Of a DNA stretch of 52,509 nt, positions 1,988-52,503 are shown in pieces; position 1 is the first letter of the stretch, and each line of letters opens with the position of its first letter. The DNA is from Paludibacteraceae bacterium. Lineage in GTDB: Bacteria; Bacteroidota; Bacteroidia; Bacteroidales; Paludibacteraceae. The notes beneath the pieces were generated by a model. The model did not search any database, was not told the DNA's origin, and saw only the letters and a program-made list of their open reading frames with translations. The translations under genes were made by a program, and so were the position numbers. Where the stretch lies: NCBI GenBank assembly GCA_024401435.1, contig JAKSLB010000021.1, forward strand, positions 1-52,509, given 5' to 3'.

Positions 1988-2015
1988 GAAGAGACGTGAT
2001 GTGCCGCATCTCTAC
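1988..2015 (-). repeat. 28-nt REP-like palindrome, copy 1 (degenerate)
   Basis: Read on the minus strand this begins GTAGAGATGC and ends CACGTCTCTTC, matching the other four 28-nt copies in the window (consensus ends GTAGAGACGC and GCGTCTCTAC). It sits between the CotH gene and the methyltransferase gene. The right arm has one mismatch to the consensus. Confidence 0.65.
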
Positions 2016-20758: not shown

Positions 20759-20786
20759 ATAGAGACGCATAATTATGCGTCTCTAC
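20759..20786. repeat. 28-nt REP-like palindrome, copy 2
   Basis: 26 of the 28 nt form a perfect palindrome (TAGAGACGCATAA then its reverse complement, 20760-20785). It lies between the helicase stop and the yigZ start, so it may also affect transcript ends. Confidence 0.8.
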
Positions 20787-27039: not shown

Positions 27040-28362
27040 ATGCTTTCTTTTATAAATATTATTATCCCTCTTATATTTTTTTCGTGTCTCTTATTTTTAT
27101 ATCACATAAGTATAGAACCTAATTCAAAAAAAATAGATGAACCATATAATTCATCTTATTCACATGAACCATATAATCCTTTAATTGGACAAATTTTAGG
27201 GTATGTCATACATGACAAAAATTCTTCCGTTCCCAATCAAGTCTATGTTCTTCTTGAAGATAGATTAAAAAAACTCAAAATGGGTACAAACAACATCAAT
27301 AAAACGATAGAAATCATAAAAAAAACGAAATCTATGCCCTATATAAATAGAAATTCCCTATTAGAATATGAAAAGAATTTTATACTCCACAACTGCTTTT
27401 ATTTTTCACTTTTTAAACCTTATTTTTTCCTTCAAAAACAATGTTTTGAACCTCTACTCATGATTACAAATGCTATGTATTCCAAAGATAGCATTAACAA
27501 GAAAAAAAATTTTTATATGCATAGTCTAAAGAATGGCGAAAGATTAAAAGCAATAGCTATTTTATTAAAAAGAATATCGACCATTAGCGGTCCAGAATCA
27601 AATGAAGAAAGGATTATTGCTCTGAATTACATTTCCTCGTTTAAACAAAAAAAGGCATTCAATGAAAATGATGCTAAACTTCTCAAACAAATTTATATGT
27701 CTTTTGATAGCGAAATAGCATATCGACTTTCATACCCTTCCATAGACTTCACTCAATACCTTTCAATAAACGATCGGATAATATTATTAGACGTAATGTT
27801 TAAGATAGCCAACGCTACTGATGGCATTATTTACGGAGAACTATCATTCTTATGTACTTATGCTTATTTTTCTGGCATACCCGAATTAACTTTTAAAAAA
27901 TATTGCCAAAAGTATAACGTAACTTGGTCTTGGAAATATGTTTGCGAAGAATCTCCTTTTGGATACAAACAACACGGGAAATCCTTCATAAATCTCCATA
28001 AAAATTTATGGATAAATTTATCTACAACAAACACAAAAAATAACCAAAAAAAGAAAACTGAATACAAGAAAAAAAATAAGAATACTTACAACGAAGAGAA
28101 TTATTATTCGTACGAACAACAAAAGAACTCGCACGAACAACAAAAGACGTCTTCAGCATCTAACTCTTATTATGCACTACTCAACCTTTCAAAAGATGTA
28201 AGTAATGAAGAAGTCAAAAAAGCTTATCGAAAAATGGCGATGAAATATCATCCAGATCGATTACCTGTTGGTTCTTCTGAAAAGGAAATAAAACAGGCGA
28301 ACGAAATGTTCATCCAAATCCAAAGAGCTTACGAGTATATTTGCAAGGAGCGAAATATGTAA
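27040..28362 (+). CDS. Membrane-anchored J-domain protein with TerB-like middle domain
   Basis: A 440-residue DjlA-like co-chaperone expected to recruit DnaK to the inner membrane. One N-terminal membrane helix (about residues 3-24), a helical TerB-like region (about 180-290: RISTISGPESNEER and FKIANATDGIIYGEL), a Lys/Asn/Gln-rich linker (about 330-370), and a C-terminal J-domain (from SYYALLNLSKDVSNEEV) with the HPD motif in KYHPDRL. The gene is very AT-rich, in sharp contrast to the arabinofuranosidase 16 nt upstream. Confidence 0.83.
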   Translation: MLSFINIIIPLIFFSCLLFLYHISIEPNSKKIDEPYNSSYSHEPYNPLIGQILGYVIHDKNSSVPNQVYVLLEDRLKKLKMGTNNINKTIEIIKKTKSMPYINRNSLLEYEKNFILHNCFYFSLFKPYFFLQKQCFEPLLMITNAMYSKDSINKKKNFYMHSLKNGERLKAIAILLKRISTISGPESNEERIIALNYISSFKQKKAFNENDAKLLKQIYMSFDSEIAYRLSYPSIDFTQYLSINDRIILLDVMFKIANATDGIIYGELSFLCTYAYFSGIPELTFKKYCQKYNVTWSWKYVCEESPFGYKQHGKSFINLHKNLWINLSTTNTKNNQKKKTEYKKKNKNTYNEENYYSYEQQKNSHEQQKTSSASNSYYALLNLSKDVSNEEVKKAYRKMAMKYHPDRLPVGSSEKEIKQANEMFIQIQRAYEYICKERNM

Positions 28363-28686
28363 AAAACACAGAATAGCCATAGCAATTATGGAACCCACGA
28401 ATGCTATTCTTCGTTGGGGAATGCTATTCATCTTTTAGGGCGAATGCAATTCTTCATTTAGGGCGAATGCAATTCGCCCCTACACACTACCGGCGTACGA
28501 ACATTCTTGGGCAATGAGAATGGATTGTCGTGATGACTCCCTTTTATCTCTCTTCCCTTCATTTTCGAACATTTGAATTTAACATGTACGGAATTACACG
28601 CGTTTAAAAGGAAACAAATCAATTATTCTACGGATATGGAACCCCTACGGGCAAGGGGGCGATGGTGTGCAATGTGCATAAAGAAA
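28363..28686. other. Intergenic region with second REP-like repeat
   Basis: Between the convergent J-domain and lipoprotein genes. No ORF with coding character; it contains the GGGCGAAT repeats at 28435-28480. The remainder (28490-28686) shows nothing recognisable. Confidence 0.6.
28435..28480. repeat. Second REP-like family: GGGCGAAT hairpin with partial tandem copies
   Basis: TTAGGGCGAATGCAATTC occurs twice (28435-28452 and 28458-28475). The second continues into ATTCGCCCCTAC, giving an 8-bp hairpin GGGCGAAT-GCA-ATTCGCCC (28461-28479). More diverged ATGCTATTC copies precede it. Confidence 0.7.
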
Positions 28687-29520
28687 TCAATAATATTCAA
28701 TCTCTCTATCCGTCAATTCTGTAATCTGTCCACCGACGTAATGCCCTTGATGTATCCAGTTGTTTTTTTGATCAAACTGATACGTGCAATCTTCTTTTTC
28801 AAATGCTTCATCATTCTCTCCAGTCATCTCCTGTAAAACTAAATTACCACCTTTATCATATGAAAGATGAGCATGTAACATAACCGTCGATTCATCTGGA
28901 GCATAAACAATAAATTCGGACAATTTCTTTTGGTCATTATACTTTTCCTGACGATAATTCACCAACTCCCTCTCACCATTGTATATTTTAATCTCCTTCG
29001 GCAATCCCTCCTTATTCATTTGAACAATGGTTTTTGATGTCAATTTATCATCTTTATCATATGCTAACGTCGTTTCAATCAAATTATCATCATTATATTG
29101 TTTCTCTTCTCTTCGAATAGCATACCCTTCTTCATCTACATCCAATGTTTCAATAAGACGACCCTTTTCATCATATTTAAATTTCGATACAAAATCCAAT
29201 TTCCCAAAATCTGCATACATCTCCTTCTGAGACAAACGTCCTTGATCATTGAAAACAGATATCACCCTCTGAAGAGTGTCCATATCAGAATTAAACCAAT
29301 AAGCAGCCGTTATTTGTCCTTGCTTGTTGAACAAACACTTTACGGAAGAGATCAATTTACCTCTCTGCGCTGTTCCATTCCCATCAACAGCAACATATTT
29401 ACGTTCCCACAAACTTTTCACTTTGCCATTCAAATTCATATCTGTTCTGTCTGAATTTTCCTGACTACAACCCAACAACAAAAGAACGGGAAACAACAAT
29501 AATAATTTAATTATCTTCAT
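28687..29520 (-). CDS. Lipoprotein with YD/RHS-like repeats
   Basis: A 277-residue lipoprotein: signal MKIIKLLLLFPVLLLLGC with Cys18, then repeated beta-hairpin units of the YDEKGRL / YDKDDKL / YNDQKKL type similar to the short repeats of RHS/YD proteins. The start is the ATG at 29520, 4 nt after the RNase R stop, rather than the TTG at 29538. It is likely co-transcribed with RNase R and anchored to the outer membrane. Function unknown. Confidence 0.72.
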   Translation of the reverse strand: MKIIKLLLLFPVLLLLGCSQENSDRTDMNLNGKVKSLWERKYVAVDGNGTAQRGKLISSVKCLFNKQGQITAAYWFNSDMDTLQRVISVFNDQGRLSQKEMYADFGKLDFVSKFKYDEKGRLIETLDVDEEGYAIRREEKQYNDDNLIETTLAYDKDDKLTSKTIVQMNKEGLPKEIKIYNGERELVNYRQEKYNDQKKLSEFIVYAPDESTVMLHAHLSYDKGGNLVLQEMTGENDEAFEKEDCTYQFDQKNNWIHQGHYVGGQITELTDREIEYY

Positions 29521-32442: not shown

Positions 32443-32470
32443 GTAGAGACGCACAATCGCACGTCTCTAC
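32443..32470. repeat. 28-nt REP-like palindrome, copy 3
   Basis: GTAGAGACG (32443-32451) pairs with CGTCTCTAC (32462-32470). It lies between the convergent thioesterase and symporter genes, 22 nt beyond the symporter stop. Confidence 0.8.
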
Positions 32471-48806: not shown

Positions 48807-49490
48807 TCATAATAGGTAAAATTTATCCTCGTTCCAATTGTTAGGATTGTTGCGTATGTAATTTTGTATTTTATTCATTGTAACGCTGTTCCGAATAATA
48901 TTGTCGTAGAACCTTGGTTGCCAAGAAAATTCATAACCCAATCGGTGAACATGCCTTGAAACTGCAGATTTGTATGACCCAACAATAGATGACAATGTTT
49001 TCGATCCCTGATGTTGAAACCGTTTTTGCCCGATGGTTTGGTATGATTGTGGCATTTGTTGTGTGCATGATACGGCGGATTGGCATGTTGTGGTGGGGTC
49101 GCATGATGTGGTGGGGTCGCATGATGTAGAGACAACGCATGCGTTGTCTCTACCGACGTTTCCGACGTTTCCGACGTTTCCGACATTTCCATTGTTTCCA
49201 ATGTCCCCGTTATTGATTGCAATAATACCATGTATGTGATTCGGCATAACCACAAATGCATCCAATTCAATATTGTCAAAATGATTTTTTAATTCGTGCC
49301 ATAAAACATCGGCGACAGCACCGATGGGCGATAATTTTATTTTACCATCATCGATTTCACCAAAATAATGTATTCTGTCTTTTGTGCAGATGGTTACGAA
49401 ATAGATGGCATTCCATCCATAATCCCAATTCTGCAATCGGGTTGATGGTATTCTGTATTTGTTTCTATATTTCCCATTATTCGATTCCAT
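48807..49490 (-). CDS. REP-associated tyrosine transposase (RAYT, Y1/HUH family)
   Basis: A 227-residue single-strand DNA transposase-like protein. It has the N-terminal beta strand AIYFVTICTKDRIHYFG, the HUH motif in MPNHIHGI (His85, His87), and a candidate catalytic Tyr173 in SIVGSYKSAVSR. The usual C-terminus includes QPRFYDNIIRN and NPNNWNEDKF. RAYTs are thought to cut and spread REP palindromes. Between the HUH motif and Tyr173 lies an unusual ~60-residue low-complexity insert (GNV repeats, then CDPTTS repeats), which includes a perfect 28-nt REP palindrome translated in frame as residues 113-122. Four further REP copies occur in the window. It has the same promoter sequence as the MntA gene. 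Confidence 0.88.
   Translation of the reverse strand: MESNNGKYRNKYRIPSTRLQNWDYGWNAIYFVTICTKDRIHYFGEIDDGKIKLSPIGAVADVLWHELKNHFDNIELDAFVVMPNHIHGIIAINNGDIGNNGNVGNVGNVGNVGRDNACVVSTSCDPTTSCDPTTTCQSAVSCTQQMPQSYQTIGQKRFQHQGSKTLSSIVGSYKSAVSRHVHRLGYEFSWQPRFYDNIIRNSVTMNKIQNYIRNNPNNWNEDKFYLL
49091..49198. repeat. Tandem repeats flanking the REP palindrome inside the RAYT gene
   Basis: Two perfect 18-bp units (49091-49108 and 49109-49126) lie on one side of the palindrome. On the other side are three perfect 9-bp CGACGTTTC units plus two diverged ones (49154-49198). All are multiples of three and keep the RAYT frame open. Confidence 0.85.
49126..49153. repeat. 28-nt REP-like palindrome, copy 5, inside the RAYT coding sequence
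   Basis: A perfect 28-bp palindrome: GTAGAGACAACGCA followed by its exact reverse complement. Same length and outer arms as the four dispersed copies. Confidence 0.85.
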
Positions 49491-49554
49491 TGTGCAATTT
49501 TATTGTTTTAACAAAACAAGATAAAAACATAAAGTTTGACGACCTTCTTTTCTG

Positions 49555-49586
49555 CAAAAATATCACATCACACCCATTTTCCCAAA
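49555..49586 (-). promoter_or_regulatory. Promoter of the RAYT gene within a repeated terminator-promoter unit
   Basis: TTTG (49583-49586), 20-nt spacer, TATTTTTG (49555-49562) on the minus strand. Identical in layout and nearly in sequence to the promoter before mntA (50286-50317). Confidence 0.75.
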
Positions 49587-49598
49587 TGCCCATGCAAC

Positions 49599-49627
49599 AA
49601 AAAAGCCGCACCCAAAACGGATGCGAC
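49599..49627 (-). terminator. Terminator after hepT (shared type, copy 1)
   Basis: A 9-bp stem with G-U pairs (GTCGCATCC / GGGTGCGGC) and six T, about 30 nt after the hepT stop. Part of the repeated unit 49552-49625. Confidence 0.8.
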
Positions 49628-49656: not shown

Positions 49657-50004
49657 TCATTGCAACTCTGCAATATATTCTTTCAACTGGCTTTGCAACT
49701 CCGGCAAATCCATTTTTACAACTTCCCAAAGAATCATCGTGTCAATTTGGTAGTAATCGTGCACCAAAATATGCCTCATTTTTTCAATAACACGCCAATT
49801 TGTAGCAGAATGAGAATTTTTGAATTCATCAGTCAACTTGCACACAGCCTCACCTATGATTTGTACATTGTACATAGTGGCGTGCAGTCGCAAAGAATCT
49901 GTCGAGAAGGCTTCATAATCTATTCCTTCTGTATATTCATATACTTTTGCTATGGATTGTAACATGTGTTCCAATCTGCCTTTATCTCTACACTCCTCTC
50001 TCAT
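49657..50004 (-). CDS. hepT: HepT-like ribonuclease toxin (DUF86)
   Basis: A 115-residue helical HEPN-type toxin. The RX4HXY motif is Arg77, His82, Tyr84 (RHILVHDY). In characterised HepT/MntA pairs HepT is an RNase and its Tyr is AMPylated by MntA. It overlaps the mntA gene by 17 nt, in the antitoxin-first order. It ends with a terminator of the shared type. The function is by family. Confidence 0.88.
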   Translation of the reverse strand: MREECRDKGRLEHMLQSIAKVYEYTEGIDYEAFSTDSLRLHATMYNVQIIGEAVCKLTDEFKNSHSATNWRVIEKMRHILVHDYYQIDTMILWEVVKMDLPELQSQLKEYIAELQ

Positions 50005-50281
50005 ATATCAGCGTTTTATCTTGTTCCGCACTTTTTTGAGCAAACGGAAGCAACGTCCCCTCTACAACCATATCAACCTTTTTTTTCAAAAGATCTTCCA
50101 GTTCACAAATCATCAAGGCATATTTCAAACCTATTCGTTCTCCTTTTTTGAATGTTACCAATATATCCACATCACTGTCCTCTCGTTCTTCACCACGAGA
50201 ATAGGATCCAAAAATCCATGCCTTTTCGACAGGTTGGGTTCTTAGATAATTAACAATGATATTTACTATATTTTTGTTCAT
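49988..50281 (-). CDS. mntA: MntA-type minimal nucleotidyltransferase antitoxin
   Basis: A 97-residue nucleotidyltransferase with the GSX10DXD motif (Gly25, Ser26, Asp37, Asp39 in FGSYSRGEEREDSDVDILV). In the known systems it neutralises HepT by transferring AMP to its active-site Tyr. The start ATG begins only four bases after the TATTTTTG box, so the mRNA is probably leaderless or nearly so. The gene directly abuts the repeated terminator-promoter unit 50283-50355. Confidence 0.88.
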   Translation of the reverse strand: MNKNIVNIIVNYLRTQPVEKAWIFGSYSRGEEREDSDVDILVTFKKGERIGLKYALMICELEDLLKKKVDMVVEGTLLPFAQKSAEQDKTLIYERGV

Positions 50282-50285
50282 ACTG

Positions 50286-50317
50286 CAAAAATATCACATC
50301 ACACCCATTTTTCCAAA
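50286..50317 (-). promoter_or_regulatory. Promoter of the mntA-hepT operon within a repeated terminator-promoter unit
   Basis: TTTG (50314-50317), 20-nt spacer, TATTTTTG (50286-50293) on the minus strand. Confidence 0.78.
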
Positions 50318-50328
50318 TGCCCATGCAA

Positions 50329-50357
50329 CAAAAAAGCCGCGCCCGAGTGGATGCGGA
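50329..50357 (-). terminator. Terminator after the DUF4143 ATPase gene (shared type, copy 2)
   Basis: An 8-bp stem with one mismatch (CCGCATCC / GGGCGCGG) and six T, about 29 nt after the ATPase stop. Confidence 0.75.
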
Positions 50358-50385: not shown

Positions 50386-51555
50386 CTAACCATCTATACG
50401 AGATACAATGTCAACGATTTCATTCAAATTGCAAACCGTCACGTTTTCTGCGAATGGATAAGAGGACTCGACAGGGGCTACGACATAGATGTCCGTCGGC
50501 TCTAAAAAAGATATCGACTTCCAGAATCCTTCCGTCACAGAGGGAGCCGTAGAGGATTTACATTCTATGGCAACGAGTCGGTTCGAATATTGTAGTACGA
50601 GATCCATTTCCTCTCCCGTAGCGCTACGATAAAAGAAGCATTGCGCATTTCTTGCCACGGAACATACATTCTCGACCACCATTCCTTCCCATGAATTACC
50701 TAACACAGGATTGCTTAGCAAATCATTGAACGACTTTATTCGCAAGATTTGATGCAGCAGACCGCTATCTCTGACATAAATCTTAGGAGATTTCACCAAC
50801 CTTTTTTTTGTGTTCTTAAAATAGGGGGGCAAGGAACGGATAATATATGTTTGTTCCATAATGTCCAAGTAGTGGCGAATGGTTGTTGGGCTCAATCCCA
50901 TGGAAGAGGCAAGTTTGGATGAGTTGAGCAATTGTCCTTGTTCGTATGCTGTCATGGTTAGTAATCTCATCAATTGTGGGGCGGCAATTTGGAATCCCAA
51001 CTGAGGAATGTCTCTTTCAATATATGTGCGGATAAAGTTTTCCCTCCACAAGCAACTGCTATTATCATCAGCCGCCATGAAGCTGTCTGGGTATCCGCCT
51101 CTGAACCAATAATCTTGCAATGAGAAATCTTCTGTCTTATCCACTTCATCAACCAAAAAGGGAGTCAGAGAGATTAGCCCGACGCGCCCAGCCAACGACT
51201 CGGAGGTGTGTTGGATTAAATTTCTGGAGGCCGAACCCAACAAAATGAATCTGCCACGACGTCTGTCTCTGTCAATCTCGCTTCTAAGCACAGCGAAGAT
51301 ATCTGGACGCAGTTGCACCTCGTCCAGACAGATGGTCTTGTTTGCGTTGTATTGGAAGAAAAGAGAAGGCTCGTTTAATTTCGCTAAGTCATCTCTGTTT
51401 TGAAGGTCTAAATACAAGATGTTAGAGTCTTCCTTCTGCATCATCTTTACCAACGTACTTTTTCCACACTGCCTTGATCCTAAGATCGCAACTGCCGGGA
51501 AAATAGACAAGTTCGTCTTGACAAATTCTATGATATTTCTTGAAATATACTTCAT
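50386..51555 (-). CDS. AAA-type ATPase with DUF4143 and PD-(D/E)XK-like domain
   Basis: A 389-residue protein with P-loop GSRQCGKST (26-34), Walker B ICLDE (75-79) and sensor LLGSAS. A winged-helix region (about 208-232, SKLASSMGLSPTTIRHYL) follows, then the DUF4143 domain with a nuclease-like core (Glu290, Asp318 in EMDLVL, Glu331 and Lys333 in AIECKSS). This family is common in accessory regions; its role is unknown, though nuclease or defence functions have been suggested. The ATG at 51555 is chosen over a TTG at 51576, because the TACTTTTG promoter box covers the latter. Confidence 0.88.
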   Translation of the reverse strand: MKYISRNIIEFVKTNLSIFPAVAILGSRQCGKSTLVKMMQKEDSNILYLDLQNRDDLAKLNEPSLFFQYNANKTICLDEVQLRPDIFAVLRSEIDRDRRRGRFILLGSASRNLIQHTSESLAGRVGLISLTPFLVDEVDKTEDFSLQDYWFRGGYPDSFMAADDNSSCLWRENFIRTYIERDIPQLGFQIAAPQLMRLLTMTAYEQGQLLNSSKLASSMGLSPTTIRHYLDIMEQTYIIRSLPPYFKNTKKRLVKSPKIYVRDSGLLHQILRIKSFNDLLSNPVLGNSWEGMVVENVCSVARNAQCFFYRSATGEEMDLVLQYSNRLVAIECKSSTAPSVTEGFWKSISFLEPTDIYVVAPVESSYPFAENVTVCNLNEIVDIVSRIDG

Positions 51556-51573
51556 GTTGTAGCTTGCTTTTTG

Positions 51574-51581
51574 CAAAAGTA
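51574..51581 (-). promoter_or_regulatory. -7 box of the DUF4143 ATPase gene
   Basis: TACTTTTG on the minus strand, 18 nt before the ATG at 51555. No TTTG at the normal distance. Confidence 0.55.
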
Positions 51582-51672: not shown

Positions 51673-51701
51673 AAAAAAAGCCGCACACAAGCGGATGCGG
51701 C
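51673..51701 (-). terminator. Terminator after the zeta-like gene (shared type, copy 3)
   Basis: A 6-bp stem GCCGCA / TGCGGC with seven T on the minus strand, about 25 nt after the stop. It shares the CAACAAAAAA(A)GCCGC and GATGCG stretches of the other two copies but lacks their promoter part. Confidence 0.78.
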
Positions 51702-51725: not shown

Positions 51726-52331
51726 CTAAATCAAGTTTAAAATTATACTTGCCCATTCCGGAATCTGGTCTGTATATTGCTTCGCCAACCTGCCTTCCGA
51801 AAGACGGAAGAGCAATTTTGCGTCTTCATTGTCAATGGAGTTGTCGTAGAAATAGGCCCGGTTTACAACAGAAGATAACTCTTGGCAATTTCGGATGGAT
51901 TGATAATATCTGGAGATGATTTTAGGAATAGGAACGTCATGACCTCCCTTCATCACCCGGTCTACAATTCTTGAGGCATTGATATTAGGCGAGGTTGTGC
52001 ATACAAAAAAAAGTCTTACGAAAAATCCATTTTCAATAGCTCTCTTTATATACTCAACTTTATCATGTCTGGACAAAACAGTTTCGAATATAAGGCTTTT
52101 CTTTTCCGCCAAACACTTTTCTCTTAAGTTCTCGCAATACTGAATAGATTTGAATACTGCTTCTGTAGAATTCCAGTCGCCAAAGATCTCCTGCGCTATG
52201 ATGTCTGGGTTTATATACAAAGCGTCCTCCATCCACTCATGTTTTAAAATTTTCGACGTGATGGATGTTTTGCCAGAACCATTAGGTCCCGCAATAACGA
52301 TTAGGACTGGCTTATGTATATCTTCATGCAT
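51726..52331 (-). CDS. Zeta-toxin-like P-loop kinase
   Basis: A 201-residue kinase with Walker A GPNGSGKT (15-22), the INPDIIAQEIFGDW strand typical of zeta-type kinases, KSLIFETVLS, and Arg-rich lid residues (SRIVDRVMKGGHDVP). Zeta toxins phosphorylate UDP-GlcNAc and stop wall synthesis; related proteins act on other substrates. The ATG at 52331 overlaps the upstream small gene by 8 nt; a TTG at 52349 is the alternative start. The tight overlap suggests a toxin-antitoxin pair. Confidence 0.85.
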   Translation of the reverse strand: MHEDIHKPVLIVIAGPNGSGKTSITSKILKHEWMEDALYINPDIIAQEIFGDWNSTEAVFKSIQYCENLREKCLAEKKSLIFETVLSRHDKVEYIKRAIENGFFVRLFFVCTTSPNINASRIVDRVMKGGHDVPIPKIISRYYQSIRNCQELSSVVNRAYFYDNSIDNEDAKLLFRLSEGRLAKQYTDQIPEWASIILNLI

Positions 52332-52503
52332 ATTTTGGGGATTCTTCAATGTTTTTCCTTAAATCGTCAAAATATTTCTTGCGCGCTTTTTCTGTGCTTT
52401 CCTTCGCCTCCACGGCAACCTCATGCATAATCTGAGCCAACATCTCATCTGTTGGTTCTTCCATGCTGGTTAGCCTGTATTTGTTTAGTATTTCTTCTGA
52501 CAT
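52324..52503 (-). CDS. Small 59-residue partner of the zeta-like kinase, probable antitoxin
   Basis: A short gene starting at ATG 52501-52503 and ending TGA 52324-52326. The product is acidic and helical (starts MSEEILNKYRLTSMEEP, ends NIEESPKYA). Its stop overlaps the kinase start, the layout of toxin-antitoxin operons. It has no family match that I recognise. The window ends 6 nt upstream of the ATG, so the promoter and any N-terminal extension cannot be judged. Confidence 0.68.
   Translation of the reverse strand: MSEEILNKYRLTSMEEPTDEMLAQIMHEVAVEAKESTEKARKKYFDDLRKNIEESPKYA

Follow-up and report, generated by a model that had tools for sequence, protein, structure and literature searches.

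An in-frame double-foot REP inside a RAYT-like transposase gene of a Paludibacteraceae bacterium, and its counterparts in homologous genes

A RAYT-like Y1 transposase gene of a Paludibacteraceae bacterium, found in the 52,509-nt stretch of DNA analysed here (the window), carries a perfect 28-nt palindrome within its own coding sequence, between the HUH motif and the putative catalytic tyrosine. Palindromes of this kind recur in that part of homologous genes, where they are read in two frames, agree in type with palindromes flanking the same gene, are dense in and beside it, and are rare in the transposase cores and in other open reading frames. Judged from sequence comparison, cognate REPs probably accumulate in cis at their own RAYT gene, the tolerant linker being the coding part where they would survive. 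REPs in such genes have been known since 2018 (Quentin et al., 2018; PMC6006769) and the window gene is a further case; what we add is the use of frames, the match to flanks, the fall-off with distance and the sole-copy counts, which we did not find in that paper's text on the subclass concerned.

The transposase gene and its palindrome

Features of the window are listed by position.

48807..49490, minus strand: RAYT (TnpAREP) gene, 227 aa, HuH-Y1 transposase of subclass 2.4 type, from profile and PDB matches
49230..49238, minus strand: codons of the HUH motif, H85-I86-H87, both His invariant in a 14-row alignment
48858..48860, minus strand: putative catalytic Tyr211 in the motif YIRNNP, invariant in the 14-row alignment
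48969..48980, minus strand: helix motif G171-S172-Y173-K174; in relatives the corresponding residues correlate with the palindrome inner arm
49126..49153, no strand assigned: perfect 28-nt double-foot palindrome (GTAG ... CTAC), in frame, residues 113-122 (GRDNACVVST)
49083..49127, no strand assigned: 18-nt tandem array, 2.5 copies, adjoining one foot of the palindrome
49153..49190, no strand assigned: 9-nt tandem array, 4.2 copies, coding N-V-G repeats and adjoining the other foot
1988..2015, no strand assigned: decayed REP-like 28-nt element, 2 outer-arm mismatches, 8/14 pairs
20759..20786, no strand assigned: REP-like 28-nt element, 1 mismatch, 13/14 pairs, within a 111-codon open frame of uncertain status
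32443..32470, no strand assigned: REP-like 28-nt element, 11/14 pairs, all open frames across it at most 71 codons
41947..41974, no strand assigned: REP-like 28-nt element, 11/14 pairs, all open frames across it at most 42 codons

Motifs and profile matches bear out the first-pass annotation of the gene as a RAYT-like Y1 transposase. The protein matches NCBIfam NF047646 in two stretches (E 9.3e-15; 54.8 bits, short of the curated cut-off of 80), Pfam Y1_Tnp (E 2.6e-4; 21.5 bits, below the cut-off of 23) and the TnpArep structure PDB 4er8 (E 3.4e-4). Tyr211 of YIRNNP is presumably the nucleophile, a role that we carry over from E. coli TnpAREP. An IS200 transposase (subclass 1.1, with DH[VI]H and Y[IV]ENQ) was excluded by the motifs NHIH and YIRNNP.

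Its sequence features place the gene in TnpAY1 subclass 2.4, which is RAYT group 4 in the scheme of Bertels. As portrayed in the text of Quentin et al. (2018; PMC6006769), this subclass is abundant in Cyanobacteria and Bacteroidetes and has the HuH motif NH[IFV]H, the W motif WQ and the Y motif YIxNNP (their Table 1), a variable insert between beta3 and alphaC that contains short DNA repeats, a longer HuH-Y distance (median 88 aa), and double-foot REPs of the form GT[AG]G ... C[TC]AC. The window protein is alike in having NHIH at 84-87, WQ at 190-191, YIRNNP at 211-216, a pre-alphaC linker so long that 126 residues separate H85 from Y211 and so variable that it is hardly alignable among homologues, an end 8 residues past W219 with no C-terminal tail domain, and a double-foot REP in frame between HuH and Y. 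In that paper's account flanking REPs are a feature of the subclass and not an obligatory one, so membership is judged here by the motifs; no REP with arms of at least 9 nt lies within 500 nt of the window gene, and 46 of 130 homologous genes have one or more there. The residues by which E. coli TnpAREP contacts GTAG are given as W94, Q95, E100, H101 and R104 (PMC6006769), and in a phmmer alignment the window protein keeps W190, Q191 and R200, with D196 and N197 replacing E and H.

The palindrome, GTAGAGACAACGCATGCGTTGTCTCTAC (49126-49153), has 14/14 pairs and no loop, and is the sole perfect loopless palindrome of at least 28 nt in the window; 100 dinucleotide shuffles gave none. It is read in the xGT AGA GAC frame of the open reading frame 48807-49490 (minus strand), and its RNA form would fold into a 12-pair hairpin (-17.8 kcal/mol, z -6.1). 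The initial description of a perfect palindrome translated in frame within the RAYT gene, between the HUH motif and the putative catalytic tyrosine, is thus correct as to pairing, residues and position, and the element is a double-foot REP. That description also mentioned palindrome-coded strings in other transposases, and these are indeed in print: Quentin et al. (PMC6006769) report, in their text on the subclasses, REPs within tnpAREP genes themselves, with the frame intact and generally between HuH and Y, which predominate in subclass 2.4 and are unique to it apart from some in 2.8.

Partial likenesses are found in other systems, as far as the cited texts describe them. The GTAG-tagged REPs of Di Nocera et al. 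(2013; PMC3733652) are also GTAG-footed palindromes translated within genes, but their hosts are varied, many being replication or repair genes, whereas the host in the window is the RAYT itself. Rickettsia palindromic elements likewise lie within protein genes, but have the foot CGTC and lack a dedicated transposase (according to PMC3733652). E. coli TnpAREP with its REP (PDB 4ER8; PMC8266576) shares the HuH-Y1 core, the GTAG foot and the DNA-binding helix alpha3, and unlike the window RAYT it has a C-terminal tail and a bulged REP.

The four further 28-nt elements in the window have the form GTAGAGAC-N12-GTCTCTAC (up to 3 mismatches were allowed in the outer arms and 0 to 2 were seen; 0.06 elements expected by chance). 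They share the outer 8-nt arms with the RAYT palindrome, and have different inner arms and imperfect pairing. The draft genome (3.83 Mb, 204 contigs) holds 14 places with exact outer arms, the RAYT copy included, and the inner arms of that copy occur nowhere else in it, even with 2 mismatches allowed. Kinship of the genome's REP copies with the RAYT palindrome, as first proposed, therefore holds for the outer 8 nt and fails for the inner arms, and absence of shared 28-nt arms was partly the outcome that the proposal had itself named as counting against it. Only 2 of the 14 places lie within an open frame of at least 90 codons, namely the RAYT gene and a 109-codon frame (locus L007) that we do not credit as a real gene.

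The commonest outer-arm copies in this genome (contigs C2, C46, C57 and C79, exact; C68 and C128, variants) have the inner arms GCAATATTTTGC, a type seen elsewhere with RAYTs that carry RGYK. No RGYK RAYT gene is among the RAYT matches in the draft genome, and these copies may for that reason be orphans. A second RAYT-like gene of the same genome (L016; contig C112, 188-1529) has a linker without a palindrome and is surrounded by four 21-nt palindromes, three of which are AGGGCGAAATGCTTTCGCCCT.

Linker palindromes in homologous genes

Homologues were found in 37 of 61 genomes (the organism's own and 60 relatives) and in at least 128 of 295 genomes of the order (E <=1e-10). By record title, homologue loci come from Bacteroidota, Cyanobacteria, Patescibacteria, a Methylomonas, Neomarinimicrobiota and others; viral contigs gave 3 relatives only. 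The first set comprised 130 distinct genes (core identity at most 90%), drawn from genome contigs (77), genome protein or palindrome searches (49), a palindrome-pattern locus (1) and viral contigs (3). Genes were defined with two small HMMs, an earlier regular-expression search having missed 33 loci, and 7 of 145 RAYT-search loci had no open reading frame with both halves. Palindromes were detected as perfect arms of at least 10 nt with loops of up to 8 nt.

A linker palindrome is present in 87 of the 130 genes, most of which came from rankings by likeness to a query or an alignment that included palindrome-bearing members, a selection effect that bears on this fraction; dinucleotide-shuffled linkers gave one in 650. 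Perfect palindromes in the cores are few by comparison (N core, 4; C core, 1). In a fresh phylum-wide set (129 loci, reduced to 112 distinct genes with 14 open reading frames dropped as near copies) the fraction is 61 of 112. When a GAGAC-like foot is required, 82 of the first-set genes and 48 of the fresh ones have such a footed palindrome. Chance origin is ruled out by the shuffles for the window 28-mer, the outer-arm elements and the linker palindromes alike.

Near homologues differ in the presence, position, frame and copy number of the palindrome. Among the window gene and four near homologues it is present in 4/5, in two frames, with L094 lacking it. Some linkers hold several copies (four in L120, three in L153), and near relatives have decayed versions (L225 against L234, L219 against L220). 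A search of near homologue pairs for an empty site with clean insertion boundaries gave none. In the linkers of L144, L154, L111 and L158, repeats resembling half-palindromes precede one complete palindrome (in L154 as CRDAMHDDN repeated). Palindromes also lie in the open frame ahead of the HUH motif in L033, L116, L122, L136, L147 and L148; in L033 the site is the loop after the FGDI strand, and in the other five some may be upstream of the start codon.

The reading frames indicate that the DNA element is what persists. Taking one footed linker palindrome per gene from both sets (n=130), the foot's GTA falls in frame 0 in 93 cases and in frame 1 in 37; frame 2, in which TAG would stop translation, is never used. 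Six distinct genes contain exactly the window 28-mer, five of them in frame 0 and one in frame 1, so that the sequence coding GRDNACVVST in the window gene codes VETTHALSLQ in a relative 76% identical to it. Across 23 gene pairs whose cores are 70-80% identical, the 28-mers agree at 84% of positions and the adjoining 30-nt stretches at 37% (ungapped), and in the 130 palindromes the left GTAG is intact in 108 and both feet in 90. Hence the stretch is not an ordinary conserved protein segment, which the first-pass annotation had named as an outcome that would refute it: the palindrome persists in homologues whose frame, position and surroundings differ. It might still be argued that the coded peptide matters, as a protein-level extension palindromic by accident, given that the frame is kept and some ten residues are added. 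This is hardly credible, and is already contradicted by the 93:37 division of frames and by two different decapeptides from one 28-mer, which rule out a protein-level role for the decapeptide.

A further reading is that palindrome, gene and palindrome descend or are transferred jointly as one inherited unit, with no renewed insertion. The first-set tree has weak support, with stars on 14 of its 127 inner branches. On it inner-arm type shows strong structure, changing 43 times (minimum 60 and mean 64.8 over 200 shuffles), and frame shows less, changing 17 times (minimum 18, mean 22.9). Such structure speaks for joint inheritance; the variation in presence, position, frame and copy number among near homologues, and the multiple linker copies in L120 and L153, speak against it, and we regard it as quite unlikely.

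Matching copies beside the gene and in the genome

When a footed palindrome lies no more than 500 nt from a gene with a linker palindrome, the two tend to be of one type: 6-nt half-arms agree at 5/6 or more positions in 40 of 49 such genes (20/23 in the first set, 20/26 in the fresh one), and 2000 shuffles gave a mean of 6.0 and a maximum of 15. This match in relatives supports the proposal, made at first pass, that the palindrome may be the enzyme's own kind of substrate, as far as sequence agreement can. In the other 9 of the 49 the flanking palindromes are of another type only, and 3 of these come from two loci with RAYT genes side by side. At L174 and L262, two adjacent RAYT-like genes each have a palindrome type of their own in the linker.

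Density falls steeply with distance. Linkers hold 91 footed palindromes in 31.5 kb (2.9 per kb). A separate count gave 2.6 per kb for linkers, against 0.12 per kb in the N core, 0 in the C core and 0.04 in other open reading frames. In non-ORF DNA within 300 nt of the gene there are 39 in 30.2 kb (0.7-2.2 per kb by bin), with successive 100-nt bins at 1.1, 1.1 and 1.0 per kb upstream and 2.2, 0.7 and 1.1 downstream, single-bin counts being small (at most 16). Farther out there are 2 in 14.4 kb at 300-1000 nt (0 at 300-500 nt, 0.2-0.3 per kb at 500-1000 nt) and 4 in 42.4 kb at 1-3 kb (0.1 per kb). The gradient suggests that REPs originate, or are first deposited, in cis.

Copy numbers were surveyed in 27 genomes chosen for an in-gene palindrome of GTAGAGAC type, 25 of them readable (all but G458 and G439). 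In 15 of the 25 the in-gene copy is the sole exact one of its half-arm type (G000, G002, G019, G038, G069, G153, G175, G218, G221, G237, G274, G305, G327, G464 and G629), where exactness refers to the outer arms, and G038 has shortened copies beside the gene. In three more (G203, G338 and G398) every copy is within the gene or at most 300 nt from it, and in seven (G008, G071, G075, G100, G133, G167 and G449) the in-gene type has more distant copies as well. Spread in trans does occur: the window palindrome (up to 2 mismatches) is present 21 times in G046, and of the 22 genomes holding that palindrome, 14 have none inside a RAYT place among the matches listed. Two types other than the in-gene one are dispersed in G002 (contigs C14, C15 and C1), a genome with 47 outer-arm places, and copies of them adjoin other RAYT matches there (C15:190160 and 190461 around 190198-190392; C1:27967 near 28328-28900).

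These distributions bear on a reading that is in essence the published one, in which a dispersed REP family strikes all genes and survives only in tolerant loops. It would account for REPs known within other genes (PMC3733652, as described there), for the linker being the tolerant part, and for cores nearly free of palindromes. Other open reading frames have 0.04 footed palindromes per kb as against 2.6 in linkers, though; the in-gene copy is usually the sole exact one of its type; and the neighbouring genes at L174 and L262 do not share a type. Passive landing is already weakened by this and seems to us very unlikely.

A selected function is another candidate: the RAYT might bind the hairpin in its own mRNA or gene and so limit its own expression, or the in-gene copy might be a reservoir seeding genomic REPs. 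Pairing and feet that persist in a scrambled linker and a changed frame would agree with this, as would the stable RNA hairpin and the sole-copy genomes, among them G002, where the close homologue's in-gene type is alone of its kind at 1 of the 47 outer-arm places. Against it, under the detection rules used here 43 of 130 and 51 of 112 genes lack a linker palindrome, which is therefore not required, and near relatives carry decayed versions. In addition, palindromes sit at varying places in the linker, and density in the 100 nt just 3' of the gene comes close to that of the linker (2.2 vs 2.9 per kb), so that no extra selection is needed. We consider such a function unlikely, including the action on its own gene or mRNA suggested at first pass.

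Accumulation in cis, our preferred account, would run as follows. The window palindrome would be a double-foot REP, with the RAYT whose gene contains it as its cognate enzyme, and REPs of subclass 2.4 would arise or insert mainly in cis, inside the RAYT gene or at most some 300 nt away, presumably by action of the RAYT protein on its own locus as single-stranded DNA. Copies landing in the catalytic core would be removed, and those in the loop between the HUH strand and helix alphaC, a loop we presume to be disordered, would survive in the two open frames because it tolerates about ten extra residues; survivors would later decay, move or be renewed. Several points count against this account. 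To the spread in trans, the distant copies in seven genomes, the nine genes with flanks of another type and the fruitless search for an empty site, all described above, it may be added that copies inside and beside the gene could descend together as a single unit, with no new insertion, that the window locus itself lacks a REP-footed palindrome within 500 nt, and that the genome's 13 other outer-arm copies differ in their inner arms.

Recognition motif, tandem arrays and neighbouring genes

The X-S-Y-K motif sits on the helix ahead of the WQ motif. Extending an ungapped alignment by three residues, we infer that K174 corresponds to position 78 of E. coli TnpAREP, which would be on or near the helix carrying K82, a residue described as contacting the REP (PMC8266576). 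In all 42 first-set genes with inner arms of class A or B and a motif of X-S-Y-K shape, X is G where the inner arm is [AG]NNGCA and R where it is GTTGCA or close to that. Applied to 33 fresh genes, a rule fixed beforehand was correct for 22, against a mean of 8.4 and a maximum of 16 over 10000 shuffles; by class it held in 6/6 for A, 3/3 for E, 9/12 for C (tested slightly more loosely than the fixed rule, GAA being accepted with any foot), 4/10 for B and 0/2 for F. In 15 of the 48 fresh genes with a footed palindrome the motif is absent or outside the rule, and the supported branches of the tree offer 2 independent pairs, too few for a test of the code. A simple universal rule is rejected at 22 of 33, and we treat the link between X-S-Y-K and inner arm as a trend and a lead.

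A bolder version of the preferred account, possible but in our view doubtful, is that each RAYT of the subclass keeps a working substrate copy in its own coding sequence, renewed in cis, with enzyme and substrate travelling and changing as one gene and X-S-Y-K of alphaC forming part of a code for recognition (G reading [AG]NNGCA, R reading GTTGCA, and likewise for other residues). Palindromes that have decayed in near relatives, and the many genes with no palindrome, disfavour a strict requirement for one. If the in-gene palindrome is the enzyme's substrate, matched pairs of enzyme and hairpin could be read from single genes, with no guessing as to which REP belongs to which RAYT; were it also renewed in cis, each gene would be a self-documenting enzyme-substrate pair.

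Tandem arrays occur in 59 of the 128 linkers with a footed palindrome and in 26 of the 114 without (242 linkers in all). In 27 of the 57 usable genes an array stops no more than 6 nt from an edge of the palindrome, where random placement would give 10.4. This counts in favour of accumulation in cis, with the proviso that some arrays are half-palindromes that meet the edge by construction. The arrays could derive from hairpin-primed slippage or from nicking at the feet, and the data do not separate these.

Beyond the RAYT gene, the window contains a 62-nt direct repeat (49552-49613 and 50283-50344; 97% identical, 731 nt apart), part of which recurs at 51674-51700. It brackets a HepT-like RNase and nucleotidyltransferase pair of toxin-antitoxin type (49657-50004 and 49988-50281; Pfam). 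A gene for a zeta-toxin-like kinase (51726-52349) adjoins an AAA/DUF4143 gene (50386-51576).
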